Source: Terriglobales bacterium
Lineage (GTDB): Bacteria; Acidobacteriota; Terriglobia; Terriglobales; SCQP01
Assembly (NCBI GenBank): GCA_025450725.1
Contig: JANWLQ010000024.1
Location: 1 to 35,300, forward strand
DNA: 35,300 bases
Reading direction: 5' to 3'
Shown: piece by piece, positions 8,710-15,163 of the stretch
Numbering within the stretch: the stretch's first letter is position 1
Layout: each line of letters begins with the position of its first letter
The notes under the pieces: generated by a model
The model's database searches: none
What the model was told of the DNA's origin: nothing
The model's input: only the letters and a program-made list of their open reading frames with translations
Position numbers and translations under genes: made by a program

Positions 8710-9150
8710 CTAACGCCGCGATTTTTTCTTGGCGGTCTTTTTGGCTGCCGGCTTCTTCTTCGCCGCTGGTTTGCGTGATGTCTTCGAAGCTGACTTGGAC
8801 GGTTTCTTCGCCGCGCGTTTCGCCGGCGCCTTCTTCTTGGCCGCCTTCTTACCCGCGGACTTTTTTGCCGCCGGCTTGGCTGCCGCCTTCTTCGCGGCCG
8901 CCTTCTTGGCCGCCGGCTTCTTCTTCGCCACCGGCTTCTTCTTCGCTGCCGGCTTCTTCTTCGCTGCCGGCTTTGCCGGCGCCGCCTTCGCTGGCGCCGC
9001 CATCGGCTCGTCCGATTGGCTGCCGATCAGCGCGGCAAAGACATCAAGCTCTTCGTCGTCGCCGAAATCCTGTCCGCCATTGTCAGCGGGGAACACAAAG
9101 CTCTCATCATCGTCAGCCGCGGCAAACATTGGTGTTTTTATTTCGTCCAT
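8710..9150 (-). CDS. Histone H1-like / AlgP-like Lys-Ala-Pro-rich DNA-binding protein with acidic N-terminus
   Basis: MDEIKTPMFAAADDDESFVFPADNGGQDFGDDEELDVFAALIG... then (P)AAKKKPAAKKKPVAKKKPAAKKAAAKK... repeats; GGAG upstream of the ATG at 9150. Confidence 0.8.
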   Translation of the reverse strand: MDEIKTPMFAAADDDESFVFPADNGGQDFGDDEELDVFAALIGSQSDEPMAAPAKAAPAKPAAKKKPAAKKKPVAKKKPAAKKAAAKKAAAKPAAKKSAGKKAAKKKAPAKRAAKKPSKSASKTSRKPAAKKKPAAKKTAKKKSRR

Positions 9151-9221
9151 GGTTGAAGCTCCTTGCGCGCCGCATACGCGCGCTTCCACATTCTGGCAAG
9201 GCTTTGATGAATACTGCAAGC

Positions 9222-9656
9222 TTAAAGGTGGAGTTTTCTCGACGTTTTCTTCCGCGGTTTGCTTCCGCCCTCCTCCGTGGGCAGTAGCACCGCCGTGCCC
9301 TCGGCGATCAACGACGCGACACTTGCCGCGTTGGCTGCCGCCAGCCGCGACGGCGTCAGATGATACTCGCGCGCCAACCCCGCCCAACTATCGCCGGCGT
9401 GCGACCAATGCACCCGCCAGTTCAGCCGGTCTTTGGCCGGAATCCGTTCCAGCACTTGGGAAACTTGCTGCCCGGTTCCCTCCGGAAGTTTCAATTCGTA
9501 CCCCGCCGGTGCTCGCGTATGCAATAGGCTCGGATTCAAGTGTTGTAAATCTGACACGGTGGCTGAAGCGCACTCCGCCACTAGGTTGAGATCCACGTCT
9601 GCGTCCAACATGACCGTGTCAACTTGGTACGGCGTCTCCGGCACGATTGCCGGCAA
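9222..9656 (-). CDS. C-terminal part of MltD-like transglycosylase (LysM-containing), separated from the catalytic part by in-frame TAA at 9660-9662; potential TTG start at 9656
   Basis: Same frame as the upstream ORF; WRVHWSHAGDSWAGLAREYHLTPSRLAAANAAS resembles LysM; GGAGGAG just upstream of TTG. Confidence 0.8.
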   Translation of the reverse strand: MPAIVPETPYQVDTVMLDADVDLNLVAECASATVSDLQHLNPSLLHTRAPAGYELKLPEGTGQQVSQVLERIPAKDRLNWRVHWSHAGDSWAGLAREYHLTPSRLAAANAASVASLIAEGTAVLLPTEEGGSKPRKKTSRKLHL

Positions 9657-9659
9657 CCC

Positions 9660-10631
9660 TTACTCCTCCGGATTGCGCGCTATCAACGCCGTCGCCAAAA
9701 TCACCGGCACGTAGTTGCGCAAATACCGCGGGAGATCGTTCCGCGCATACAGCTTCCAATAGTCGGCGTAACCGGTGCGCGCGACGAGTTTTTGTATCGT
9801 CCCCGGTCCGGCGTTGTAGGCCGCCATCGCCAGATACCAATCTCCAAACTCATGGTGCAAATCCTTCAGGTGCCGCGCCGCCGCGAGCGTTGCCTTTTCC
9901 GGATCGTCGCGCTCATCCACCCAGGCCGTGCGCTTCAATCCGTAATCGTCCGACCGCGACGCCATGAACTGCCACATGCCCCTCGCCCCGGACCGCGACA
10001 CCAGCACCGGATCATAGCTGCTCTCCAATTGCGCCATGTAGATCAACTCGTCGGGAATGCCCTCGGCGGTGAAAATGCGGTCCATCATGGCGCGGTATCG
10101 CCCCGACCGGCGGTAATCCCGCATCAGGCCCTCCCGCCCCGTCGTGGTGAAATAGTGAATGTAGCGGATGACCGTATCGTTCAATTCAATCGGAAGCTGC
10201 TGCTCGCTGGGGCTCTTCGTCGCCGCCGGTGCCGTATTTTTTTCAATGGCCTCGCGCGTCGCGGCGTCAATGGGAAATGTGAGTTCGGGGATCGTCTCTT
10301 TCGGCGTCGGTTTTACATTGTTCATCCCGCCGCTGTCCAGCGTGTCGCTCTCGATCGCATGAATCCGGTCGAGCAGCGAATCCAGCTCGTTCTGCAGCGC
10401 TGGCGTGTCGAGAATGGAGTAGCTCGTCCCCAGCAAACGGTCCACTGTGGCGTCAAAGGCGGAGCGCGCTTCGTCCAATTGCCCGATCTGGTACAGGTGC
10501 AGCGCGGAGTTGTACTGCCGCTCCAGAGACTGCACCAGCGCCGCGACCGGGTCGCTTGGCGCTTGCGCCCGCCCCGGCGCACCCGCCAGCAGTGGCAGCA
10601 GCGCCGCCGCTGCCATAACGATTCGCCGCAT
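9660..10631 (-). CDS. mltD: Membrane-bound lytic murein transglycosylase D-like, catalytic part (SLT domain)
   Basis: Signal peptide; IPDELIYMAQLESSYDPVLVSRSGARGMWQFMASRSDDYGL...AAYNAGPGTIQKLV...YVPVILATALIARNPEE. Confidence 0.93.
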   Translation of the reverse strand: MRRIVMAAAALLPLLAGAPGRAQAPSDPVAALVQSLERQYNSALHLYQIGQLDEARSAFDATVDRLLGTSYSILDTPALQNELDSLLDRIHAIESDTLDSGGMNNVKPTPKETIPELTFPIDAATREAIEKNTAPAATKSPSEQQLPIELNDTVIRYIHYFTTTGREGLMRDYRRSGRYRAMMDRIFTAEGIPDELIYMAQLESSYDPVLVSRSGARGMWQFMASRSDDYGLKRTAWVDERDDPEKATLAAARHLKDLHHEFGDWYLAMAAYNAGPGTIQKLVARTGYADYWKLYARNDLPRYLRNYVPVILATALIARNPEE

Positions 10632-10634
10632 TGG

Positions 10635-11636
10635 CTAGGCGCGCTGCGGCTCCATCCGCAATGCGGCGCTGCGGCGCCGCGTCGCCGCACCAAGCTCGGG
10701 CGCCAGGCGCACTGTCTGCAGCAGCGCCTGGGGCAGGTCCGGAATTTTCCTCAGCGTCGCTTCCGCCGCCGTGATCGAGGCCTCGACCTCGCTCGTGCTC
10801 CGCTGCGACATCTCCGCCAACTCCTCTACTCTAAAGCCCTCGAGCAGGTACAACACCACATCCTGGCGCTGCGCCGCCGGCAGCCGCCGCACCGCATGCG
10901 CCAGCCTTCGCATCCACTCGTCCGTGTTGGCCAGCTCCTCCGGGTCCGCCTCCTCGGCGATTAGCGTGTTGTTCTCGATCGGTTCAAGCGGTTGTCCCTG
11001 TGGACTGCTGCCGTACTGTTTCACCAGCCTTCCAATCGCCGCCGCCGCCAGCACCAGCAGCCAGCGCGCGCGGTGGTCGCGCAACTCTCGCGTCCGGCTG
11101 TCCAGCGCCGCCACCACCACTTCATCTAAAACCTCGTGAGCGTCAATCTGTCCCGGCTCCAACTCGCCCAACCGCTCCCGCAACGCAACCTGCCGCTGCA
11201 CAAAGCCCAGCACATCCGCATAATGCTCGCCAAAGTATCCCATCAGGTCGGCCCCCGGCTCGAGCGACGGCCCGTTCCGATTCTCTTGCCGCGCGCTGGT
11301 TTCGGTCCTCGCACTCCGCTGGTGCGGACGCGTCTCCCGCAACTTCTGTTTGTGTTTCTTCAACTGCCTGAGCAATTCCTCGCTCGCGCCGCGAAACGCC
11401 GCTTGCGCCGTGGTGGCGACCTTTTCGCCGCTCAACTGCCCGGTGGGCAAGTGCAAGTTCAATCGGCACTCGACCCCTTCCCGGCTGGTGTGCCGCAACA
11501 ACCGCCCTTGCACTTGAATCAGGTCGGGTTGAAAAGCAATCAGCAACGGCTCGAGCTTCTGCTCAAAGCGATGGAATAGGGCATTAAGGTCGGGGGAACG
11601 AGGGACTTGAACGGTAAGCTGAACGTTCATAGGCAT
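10635..11636 (-). CDS. Fusion protein: HPF/RaiA (S30AE-like) N-terminal domain plus sigma-70-like C-terminal region
   Basis: N-term [32 protein letters not shown]...[32 protein letters not shown] is HPF-like; C-term [48 protein letters not shown] is sigma region 4-like. AGAGGA upstream of ATG 11636. Confidence 0.75.
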
Positions 11637-11720
11637 GGATCCTCTATTACTAGAACTACGCCTATTACGAGCCCAACGCAACTGGCTCATGGCAGCTTTC
11701 TTCCACGGTACAATTTCCAC

Positions 11721-12290
11721 ATGTCCACGCCACAGGCCGGTCTCGGTGCCAGCATTTCGCCCGCCGTCGTAAAAGTACTGAAGGCCCACATACGTGAAGT
11801 CCCCGATTTCCCAAAACCGGGAATTCTCTTCTACGACATCACCACTCTGCTTAAGAATGGCCCCGCCCTGGCGCAACTCATCGATACCCTCGCCGAACAT
11901 TACCGCTCCCAGCGCATCGATCTCGTGGCTGGCATCGAAGCCCGCGGTTTCATCTTTGGACCCGCCCTCGCCCTGCGCCTTGGCGCCGGCTTTGTGCCCA
12001 TCCGCAAGCCCCGCAAGCTGCCCGCCCCTACCGTGGCGGTCGAGTACGCGCTCGAATACGGCACCGACCGGCTCGAGCTCCACCGCGATGCCATCACCCG
12101 CGGCCAGCGTGTGTTGATCGTAGATGACCTCATCGCCACCGGCGGCACCGCCCTCGCCAGCGCCCAACTCGTCGAACAACTGAAAGGTACCGTCGCTGGC
12201 TTTGCCTTCATCGTTGAACTCACCTTCCTCGCCGGACGTCAGCGCCTCGCTTCCTACAACGTCACCTCCCTCCTCGCCTACGACGTATAA
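11721..12290 (+). CDS. apt: Adenine phosphoribosyltransferase
   Basis: [27 protein letters not shown]...[31 protein letters not shown]...[16 protein letters not shown]. Confidence 0.96.
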
Positions 12291-12296
12291 CCCAGC

Positions 12297-13022
12297 ATGC
12301 GCGCCATCGTCGGAATTAACGCGGTCCGCGAGGCGCTCCGGGCGCGCACGCCCTTGGCTTGGATTGCCGTTTCCCGTGACCGCCGCGACGCCCGCATTCA
12401 GGATCTAATCTCGCTCGCCCGCGCCGCCCATGTGAACGTTCGCTTCACCGCCGCTGCCGACCTCGACCGCCTTGCCGGAGCCGCGGCCGCCCACCACCAG
12501 GGTGCTGTGGCCCAGGCCGAGGCCAAAGCCGTTCTCGATCTTGAAGATCTCCTCGCCGACTCGCCCGCCGGCTTTCTTCTGGCGCTCGATGGCATCGAAG
12601 ATCCCCACAACCTGGGTGCCATCATCCGCGGCGCCTGCGGTGCCGGGGTGGATGGCGTCCTCCTGCCCGCGCGGCGCGCCGTCGGCCTGACCGAAACCGT
12701 CGAACGCGTTTCCGCCGGCGCGCTCGAACACGTCCGTGTCGCCCGCGTCGGCAACCTGGTACAGGCCCTCACGACATGCCAACAGTCAGGATGGTGGCTC
12801 GTCGGCCTCGATGCTTCCGCCCCCCGCACCCTTTGGGACCACGACTTCACTCCGCGCACCGTGCTTGTCATCGGCGCCGAAGGCAAAGGCCTGCACGCCC
12901 TCACCCGAAAGAGGTGTGATGCGCTGGTTTCCATCCCACTCGCTCCCGGAGTGGAATCGCTCAATGCATCAATGGCGGCCGGCATCGTACTCTATGAACT
13001 AGTGCGGCAGCGACGAAAATGA
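12297..13022 (+). CDS. rlmB: TrmH/RlmB-family 23S rRNA (guanosine-2'-O-)-methyltransferase
   Basis: IVGINAVREALRAR...LLALDGIEDPHNLGAIIRGACGAGVDGVLLP...VIGAEGKGLHALTRKRCDALVSIPLAPGVESLNASMAAGIVLYEL. Confidence 0.93.
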   Translation: MRAIVGINAVREALRARTPLAWIAVSRDRRDARIQDLISLARAAHVNVRFTAAADLDRLAGAAAAHHQGAVAQAEAKAVLDLEDLLADSPAGFLLALDGIEDPHNLGAIIRGACGAGVDGVLLPARRAVGLTETVERVSAGALEHVRVARVGNLVQALTTCQQSGWWLVGLDASAPRTLWDHDFTPRTVLVIGAEGKGLHALTRKRCDALVSIPLAPGVESLNASMAAGIVLYELVRQRRK

Positions 13023-14185
13023 TCATCCAGCAGGTCGAAGCCTTACAGCGATGGCGGCAAGCCCGGCAGGGAAGTGATCTCCTTTGGCCCGTGGTGCGCC
13101 CTGAGGCCCTCTACCAGCGCCCTGTACCTGAGCGCCACCGCCTGGTTTTTTACCTCGGCCACCTCGAAGCCTTCGATTGGAATCTCCTCGCTCCCGCGCT
13201 CGACATCAAGCCATTTCACCCTGAGTGGGATCAACTCTTTGCCTTTGGTATTGATCCGGTCGAAGGCGAGCTCCCCAATGATCCCGCGTCGGCCTGGCCC
13301 GCCATTGCCGATGTGCACGCCTACAACCAGCAGGCTCGTTCGCAACTCGATAGCGCACTCGCGCGGCCTCCGACACCAGAAGTCAAACTCCGTCTCGAGG
13401 TCGCCCTCGAGCACCGCTGGATGCACGTCGAAACGCTGAGCTACCTCTTCCACAACCTCGCCTACTGTCACAAACAGCCAGGCCCGCAACCCCACCCCGG
13501 CGCTGCCACGAACACTCCCGCGCCCCAGGTCCCCGTACCCGCCGGAACCGCCACGCTCGGCCAGCACCGCAACGGCAGCTTCGGTTGGGATAACGAATTC
13601 GACGCCCTCTCCGTCTCCATTCCTGCCTTCACCATTGACAAACGGAAAGTCACCAACGGCGATTATCTGAAGTTCGTCGAAGACGGCGCCGCCCCGCCGC
13701 ATTTCTGGTCCATGCGCGACAATGCCTGGCAGTACCGCGGCATGTTTGGCGAAGTCTCCCTTCCGCTTGACCTGCCCGTGTACGTCACCCACGCCGAAGC
13801 CGCCGCCTACGCTCAATGGCGCGGCGCGCGGTTGCCCACCGAAGCCGAATGGCACCGCGCCGCCGAAGGCTCGACCCCCGGCAACGCTGGCCTCCGCCAC
13901 TGGGATCCGGCGCCGGTGGATCCCGCCACCGCCTCTGTGCACGGTGTTGAAGATCTTATCGGCAACGGATGGGAATGGACCTCGACCGAGTTCTCCCCCT
14001 TTCCCGGTTTTAAACCGTTCGACTTCTACCCCGGCTACTCGGCCAACTTCTTCGATGGCAAGCATTTCGTCCTCAAGGGCGCCTCGCCCCGCACCGCCGG
14101 CTGCTTCTTCCGTCCCAGCTTCCGCAACTGGTTCCAGCCCAATTACCCTTATCTCTACGCCGGCTTCCGCTGCGTTTCCCGCTGA
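13019..14185 (+). CDS. egtB: EgtB-like ergothioneine biosynthesis protein (DinB_2 + FGE-sulfatase domains)
   Basis: HxxxHxE iron motif HRWMHVETL; FGE core GARLPTEAEWHRAA...VHGVEDLIGNGWEWTSTEF...GFRCV; 4-bp ATGA overlap with rlmB; followed by egtD. Confidence 0.88.
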   Translation: MIIQQVEALQRWRQARQGSDLLWPVVRPEALYQRPVPERHRLVFYLGHLEAFDWNLLAPALDIKPFHPEWDQLFAFGIDPVEGELPNDPASAWPAIADVHAYNQQARSQLDSALARPPTPEVKLRLEVALEHRWMHVETLSYLFHNLAYCHKQPGPQPHPGAATNTPAPQVPVPAGTATLGQHRNGSFGWDNEFDALSVSIPAFTIDKRKVTNGDYLKFVEDGAAPPHFWSMRDNAWQYRGMFGEVSLPLDLPVYVTHAEAAAYAQWRGARLPTEAEWHRAAEGSTPGNAGLRHWDPAPVDPATASVHGVEDLIGNGWEWTSTEFSPFPGFKPFDFYPGYSANFFDGKHFVLKGASPRTAGCFFRPSFRNWFQPNYPYLYAGFRCVSR

Positions 14186-14191
14186 CCCCAA

Positions 14192-15163
14192 ATGGCAAGC
14201 TCATTACTCATCCCGCCGCCTGCACAACTCACACTCGGCGATGAGGTTGTCGCCGGCCTCACCCGTCCCGGCCAGAAAACGCTGCCCAGCAAGCTCTTCT
14301 ACGATCAGGTCGGCTCGGTTCTCTTCGAAGCCATCTGCGCTCTGCCCGAGTACGGTTTGACCCAGGCCGACGCGCGGCTTCTGCAATCTCACGCCGCCGC
14401 CATGATCGCCCCCTTCGCCGGTGGCGTGACCGTCGCTGAATTGGGCAGCGGCACGGGCGAGAAAACCCGCTGGATTCTCGAAACCCTCTGCCGCCGCCAG
14501 CCGACCGATTATTACCCCATCGAAATCTCCTCTCTCGCCCTCAAACAATGCCAGGCCGAGCTGGCCGCAATCCCAGGCCTGACCATTCACCCCCAAGAAG
14601 CCGACTACCTTGCCGGCCTCGCCGCACTCGCCGCTTTACGCGGCCCCGCGCCCCTACTGGTACTGTTCCTGGGCAGCACATTCGGAAATTTCGACCCCGG
14701 TCCCGGCCACGATTTCTTGGTGAACGTGCGCAGCCTCTTGCGCCCCGGCGACGGCCTGTTGCTCGGTCTCGATCTCGTCAAGCCGGTCAAACGCGTCAAA
14801 CTCGCCTACGACGATCCCGCCGGTGTCACCGCTGCCTTCAACCGCAACGCCCTGGCCCGCCTCAACCGCGAGTTCGACGCCGATTTCGACCTGCGCTACT
14901 GGCGCCACAAGATCCGCTATACCCGCCCCTGTGAACGCGTCGAAATGCATCTCGTATCGCAGCGCGACCAGACCGCTCACCTCCGCGCCCTCGACCGCAC
15001 TGTCGCCTTTGCCCGCGGCGAGTCCATCTGGACGGAGAGCTCGCACAAGTTCCGCCCCGCCGGTATCGCTCCGCTCGTCGCCGCCGCCGGTTTCCGCCTC
15101 CACCGGCAATGGCGTGATGACCGCTGGCCCTTCGCCGAAAACCTCTGCCTCGCAATCGAGTAG
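14192..15163 (+). CDS. egtD: L-histidine N-alpha-methyltransferase EgtD
   Basis: LPSKLFYDQVGSVLFEAICALPEYGLTQADARLL...VAELGSGTGEKTRWILE...LFLGSTFGNFDPGPGHDFL. Confidence 0.94.
   Translation: MASSLLIPPPAQLTLGDEVVAGLTRPGQKTLPSKLFYDQVGSVLFEAICALPEYGLTQADARLLQSHAAAMIAPFAGGVTVAELGSGTGEKTRWILETLCRRQPTDYYPIEISSLALKQCQAELAAIPGLTIHPQEADYLAGLAALAALRGPAPLLVLFLGSTFGNFDPGPGHDFLVNVRSLLRPGDGLLLGLDLVKPVKRVKLAYDDPAGVTAAFNRNALARLNREFDADFDLRYWRHKIRYTRPCERVEMHLVSQRDQTAHLRALDRTVAFARGESIWTESSHKFRPAGIAPLVAAAGFRLHRQWRDDRWPFAENLCLAIE

Follow-up and report, generated by a model that had tools for sequence, protein, structure and literature searches.

The 35,300-nucleotide stretch of DNA analyzed here (the window) encodes a protein in which an N-terminal S30AE domain of the ribosome hibernation type (HPF/RaiA) is fused to a module derived from an ECF sigma factor. 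The domain fusion, its conservation, its gene context and the loss of residues from the sigma part were established by sequence comparison and structure prediction. We lean modestly toward reading this protein as a stress-linked ribosome hibernation factor of undescribed architecture, in which the sigma module has been repurposed for docking and does not read promoters. This reading draws on the S30AE/HPF fold, the wide conservation of the full-length protein, a baeRF10 neighbor, the presence of members in the tLST stress island, the position of the fusion as the sole S30AE protein of its family, and the residue losses. Weighing against it are an S30AE domain that differs in places from stand-alone HPFs, a tLST member (orf11) whose S30AE part is unseen by Pfam, a comparison set of four ECF sigmas, and the lack of baeRF10 in the window's own family.

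Domain architecture and neighboring genes

The fusion gene, its domains and its two flanking genes are listed in Table 1. Pfam Ribosomal_S30AE was matched at residues 26–100 of the window protein (E 3.3e-7, 31.4 bits with a cut-off of 23.7). The sigma part gave matches under the cut-offs, both to Pfam Sigma70_r4_2 at residues 243–293 (E 5.5e-4) and to the NCBIfam sigma70-ECF model TIGR02937, with model positions 9–163 of 165 aligned to the C-terminal part (E 1.4e-8). All three models exceeded their cut-offs in the relative L120, with 45.5 bits for S30AE, 31.4 for Sigma70_r4_2 and 64.3 for TIGR02937 (cut-off 42.9). S30AE and sigma-70 region 4 were both matched in each of the 15 members of alignment A3, 13 of which are diverged, and in 52 and 51, respectively, of the 53 members of alignment A2. 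Pfam Sigma70_r2 was recognized in only one member of each alignment (1/15 and 1/53).

Table 1. Location of the fusion gene, its domains and adjacent genes within the window
Feature	Coordinates	Strand	Basis or remark
S30AE-sigma fusion gene	10635..11636	(-)	333 aa; ATG at 11636, or 11630 as in relatives
S30AE (HPF/RaiA) domain, residues 3-102, b-a-b-b-b-a	11331..11630	(-)	PF02482 above cut-off; AlphaFold; Foldseek HPF matches
Sigma region 2-like helices, residues 129-209	11010..11252	(-)	WLYRLA-type core; promoter-side basic stretch lost
Shortened linker, residues 210-231	10944..11009	(-)	Alignments; FYQPDExLxLEDL in most relatives
Sigma region 4-like helix-turn-helix, residues 232-296	10749..10943	(-)	PF08281 sub-threshold; TIGR02937; Foldseek
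SLT lytic transglycosylase, downstream neighbor	9660..10631	(-)	PF01464 E 1.4e-25
Adenine phosphoribosyltransferase-like gene, divergent, upstream	11607..12290	(+)	Name by eye; start likely near 11721

An AlphaFold model of the window protein, with 53 relatives as input, had a mean pLDDT of 81 and a pTM of 0.57. The N-terminal part was modeled as b-a-b-b-b-a at residues 4–102 followed by disorder near 104–125, and the C-terminal part as three sigma2-like helices (129–209), a disordered linker (~221–227) and four sigma4-like helices (232–296). Foldseek searches against the PDB matched the N-terminal part to HPF structures, with target-normalized TM-scores up to 0.84, and the C-terminal part to the ECF sigmas SigE, SigH and SigW. 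A second model, of relative L074, gave the same domain picture with a pTM of 0.33, a low value expected for domains that are loosely tethered. A first-pass annotation made by eye had described the N-terminal ~105 aa as HPF/RaiA-like and the remainder as carrying a sigma region 2-like stretch and a region 4-like helix-turn-helix. The profile and structure matches bear out all three calls, its boundaries were correct to within a few residues, and the fusion was not refuted by the profile searches for S30AE and sigma-70 matches.

The QLKKHK-type end of S30AE helix 2 was retained in the window protein, and residues 1–104 carried a net charge of +6. The S30AE domain of the fusion departed from the order's stand-alone HPFs in several stretches that those proteins conserve, and the Pfam scan found no S30AE_C dimerization domain (PF16321) in the window protein. 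The protein begins with MPMNVQL, and its relatives begin at the second of these methionines (11630).

The SLT lytic transglycosylase gene starts 4 bp past the end of the fusion gene, the same neighbor was observed in seven other loci of the family, and the two genes are likely co-transcribed. An in-frame TAG (stop 9660–9662) breaks an SLT plus LysM gene at 9222–10631 (-) into ORFs at 9660–10631 and 9222–9656. This transglycosylase is a single ORF of 514–706 aa in relatives from the family, and the TAG may be a true mutation or a sequencing error. The listed ORF start of the phosphoribosyltransferase-like gene (11607) overlaps the fusion gene, and this gene was conserved in four family loci. 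Elsewhere in the window, adjoining genes at 13019–14185 and 14192–15163 (+) resembled, by eye, the ergothioneine-synthesis genes for EgtB (sulfatase-modifying-factor type) and EgtD (histidine methyltransferase), and 8710–9387 (-) encodes a lysine/alanine-rich tail with KKPAAKKAAAK repeats that is histone-H1-like by eye.

Conservation of the fusion within Acidobacteriota

The fusion was present in 13 of the 14 genomes of the window's family, the exception being an 82% complete genome (G003). Most of these genomes showed one copy. A second copy, 56% identical, was observed in the window's own genome (contig C127:20515–21450; L002, L119) and may be a paralogue or may come from a contaminating relative in the MAG. 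A related-loci search with the single window protein gave no match, and an alignment query was needed to find relatives. A profile built from 30 members yielded 136 relatives in named genomes, and the best 80 of these 136 all carried Acidobacteriota titles, mostly Terriglobales MAGs. When 396 genomes from across the phylum were sampled, nine other families gave diverged matches (E 1e-27 to 1e-60), almost all of which extended over both domains. Beyond Acidobacteriota the distribution was sampled through plasmids and E. coli genomes only (see below).

The members of A3 had a motif of ~DExLxFYQPDExLxLEDLxxD in common in the linker that joins sigma2 to sigma4, and FYQPDExLxLEDL was observed in the linker of most members (alignments A1, A3 and A4); the motif is eroded in the shortened linker of the window protein. 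The shared motif and the full-length alignment suggest a single origin of the fusion. We ruled out a chance fusion or assembly artifact, as the full-length architecture recurs in many independent genomes, and also two genes misread as one, as the aligned relatives have a single open frame. No paper on an S30AE-sigma fusion was found in the literature searched, which lay largely outside subscription journals.

Every S30AE match in the window's family was the fusion, and the C-terminal domain of long HPF (PF16321) was absent from all 14 genomes, several of which are incomplete MAGs and seven of which are at least 95% complete. Because the fusion was the sole S30AE protein found and long HPF was absent, the window's lineage seems to depend solely on the fusion. 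The sister family carried the long HPF C-terminal domain in 16 of 17 genomes searched and kept the fusion as well.

Loss of promoter-contacting residues from the sigma module

We compared the fusions with four ECF sigmas from the same genome, the only ones in the comparison set, with charges taken from alignment-column counts. The fusions retained the frame of region 2.2 (EDLVQETFL in the ECFs vs EVxDEAIA), and both the WLYRLA core and the helix-turn-helix of region 4 were present in them. They had lost the arginine-rich segment that follows WLYRIA, where the mean net charge was +2.75 in the ECFs, -1.3 in A2 and +0.07 in A3, and most lysines and arginines of the recognition helix (4.2) were gone (+3.75 in the four ECFs, +1.28 in A2, 0 in A3); the fusion lacks the basic -35 recognition helix of an ECF sigma. 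The first-pass annotation had offered two alternatives, that the protein could couple ribosome silencing to transcription or that the sigma part may be degenerate. The comparison points to degeneration of the promoter-contacting residues, the basic residues of 2.4 and 4.2 being mostly gone, with the fold conserved, and the protein may still be coupled to RNA polymerase. As judged from these alignments, the fusion has probably kept a sigma fold and lost promoter reading, as in the PhyR sigma-like domain.

The loss of DNA-contact residues also suits a purely structural module that dimerizes or adds ribosome contacts like the tail of long HPF, unrelated to transcription. We regard this as a possible though tentative explanation, about as likely as a direct link to RNA polymerase or a sigma-pathway partner. 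The window's family, with the fusion and no long HPF, looks as if the module had replaced the tail; however, sister-family genomes keep both proteins, which argues against a simple replacement of one by the other, and dimerization alone would not call for an entire two-domain sigma fold plus a conserved linker motif. It is improbable that the module acts instead as a PhyR-like sigma mimic, titrating an anti-sigma or competing with sigmas and so releasing a stress regulon at the same time as ribosomes are silenced through S30AE. The residue losses would fit a mimic and 50 of the 53 A2 members matched Pfam PhyR_sigma-like, but this match is unspecific, since the model overlaps those for ECF region 4, Pfam scans of the window protein and of the A2 and A3 members found no receiver domain, and no anti-sigma gene was seen adjoining the fusion in the Acidobacteriota loci examined. 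A working ECF sigma whose S30AE domain senses the state of the ribosome is very unlikely: both sigma regions are present, several members are annotated as sigma-70 family or FliA in RefSeq and one diverged member lies above the TIGR02937 cut-off, but the basic 2.4 stretch and the K/R positions of the 4.2 helix are lost and Sigma70_r2 is hardly recognized in either alignment.

Association with baeRF10

The same next gene followed the fusion in 46 of the 61 loci that extended over 9 kb or more, mostly 11–73 bp downstream; in those of the 46 outside this range, the mechanically chosen start of the neighbor overlapped the end of the fusion. This gene encoded a baeRF protein in all four cases checked, with baeRF_family10 as the best match (E 1e-15 to 1e-21). 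Balon is an aeRF1-related hibernation factor that acts on the ribosome together with RaiA, and its genes most often adjoin RaiA and lie in stress operons with Hsp20, HdeD and 'alternative sigma70 factors' (PMC10901736). Our observations suggest that some of these 'alternative sigma70 factors' beside Balon genes may be the fusion described here, and so may themselves be hibernation factors. We did not find baeRF10 in the eight genomes tested of the window's family, where the next gene is the SLT lytic transglycosylase, and because of this the baeRF10 context offers no direct support for the window's own family.

Past the baeRF gene, a second conserved gene was observed in 33 Terriglobales loci (L093:10394–11626, L074:10414–11616), by eye a twin-arginine-exported protein resembling glycosylasparaginase/isoaspartyl peptidase. 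The gene directly after the fusion in loci from other Acidobacteriota families (L121, L124, L125, L129, L130) was aminotransferase-like by eye and not baeRF, and that in L120 looked baeRF-like.

Proteobacterial members and orf11 of the tLST

A tblastn search with an Acidobacteriota member matched 22 plasmids from hosts including Shinella, Agrobacterium, Paracoccus, Methylorubrum, Sphingomonas and Burkholderia relatives; in 20 of these plasmids the match covered 80% or more of the query. These plasmid members were annotated in RefSeq as sigma-70 factor, FliA, sigma-28 or hypothetical protein, and Hsp20 and GroEL were found near the Paraburkholderia member. With the latter as query, 277 plasmids were matched, mostly from Klebsiella, Enterobacter, Acinetobacter and Escherichia. 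Three of these plasmids were opened, and in them the match was a 381-aa hypothetical gene flanked by hdeD-GI and trx-GI. Since the gene order of the tLST is hdeD-GI, orf11, trx-GI (PMC8290217), we identified this gene as orf11, and the proteobacterial members are located in this stress island.

Orf11 and the Paraburkholderia member were 28% identical over 366 aa (E 4e-31), and a profile-profile comparison of the Acidobacteriota members with the proteobacterial members including orf11 covered 330 columns (probability 100%, E 4e-53). Shared between orf11 and the family was FEFYQPDDTLRLADII. The Pfam scan of orf11 did not detect S30AE, and its link to the fusion is drawn from full-length homology to intermediates, not from Pfam S30AE. 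Among 5,426 complete E. coli genomes, 144 carried orf11 with a match covering 80% or more of the gene. The literature lists orf11 as lacking close relatives whose function is known (PMC8290217). In LHR2 the gene is interrupted (PMC5383660), and deletion of orf11 left lipid oxidation by chlorine unaltered (PMC8407380). Membership in the family gives this gene of the heat-resistance island a concrete and testable role hypothesis.

Proposed function

In the hibernation-factor reading, the S30AE domain most likely occupies the mRNA/decoding channel of the 30S subunit, where its presumed binding would keep idle ribosomes silent. A flexible linker would tether it to an ECF-sigma module that is complete (sigma2 plus sigma4) but has been repurposed, and that retains the sigma fold along with some of the sigma2.2 clamp-contact motif. 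As few of the basic residues for recognizing -10 and -35 DNA remain, this module is unlikely to start transcription; its most likely role is in protein docking, with RNA polymerase, a partner from the sigma pathway, a further hibernation factor or a second copy of the protein as candidates. Any effect of the fusion on translation or transcription is one that we infer. A more speculative proposal, which we put forward with reserve, is that of a two-handed factor, found in Acidobacteriota and, as tLST orf11, in Proteobacteria associated with food and the clinic, whose S30AE domain parks idle ribosomes while the sigma module parks RNA polymerase or a sigma-pathway regulator.

These results define a family of S30AE-sigma proteins that is concealed in annotation by the names 'sigma-70 factor', 'FliA' and 'hypothetical protein'. 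They raise the question of whether ribosome silencing is physically coupled to the transcription machinery.

Comparison with known systems

The orf11 proteins of E. coli, Klebsiella and Acinetobacter are full-length homologues of the family with the same linker motif, although orf11 is only ~20% identical to the window protein, has an S30AE part below Pfam detection and lies in a different gene context. Balon/baeRF proteins, encoded immediately beside the fusion in most Terriglobales loci by a gene of the Balon-related release-factor group, are likely partners of the fusion and not homologues. HibA (PMC13324472) is an archaeal HPF/RaiA protein fused to a CBS module, whereas the present fusion is bacterial and carries a different module; the main-text section on HPF evolution in that paper does not mention a sigma fusion. 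The PhyR sigma-like domain (PF22233) has a sigma fold without promoter reading, as the fusion probably does, but the fusion has S30AE in place of the receiver domain. ECF sigmas (TIGR02937; SigW, SigE, SigH) have the sigma2 plus sigma4 fold and core motifs in common with the fusion, which differs in its N-terminal S30AE domain, its conserved FYQPDE linker and its depleted DNA-contacting basic residues. Long HPF (PF02482 plus PF16321) has the same layout as the fusion, with an N-terminal S30AE domain, a flexible linker and a C-terminal module, but in the fusion this last module is derived from an ECF sigma and is not S30AE_C.
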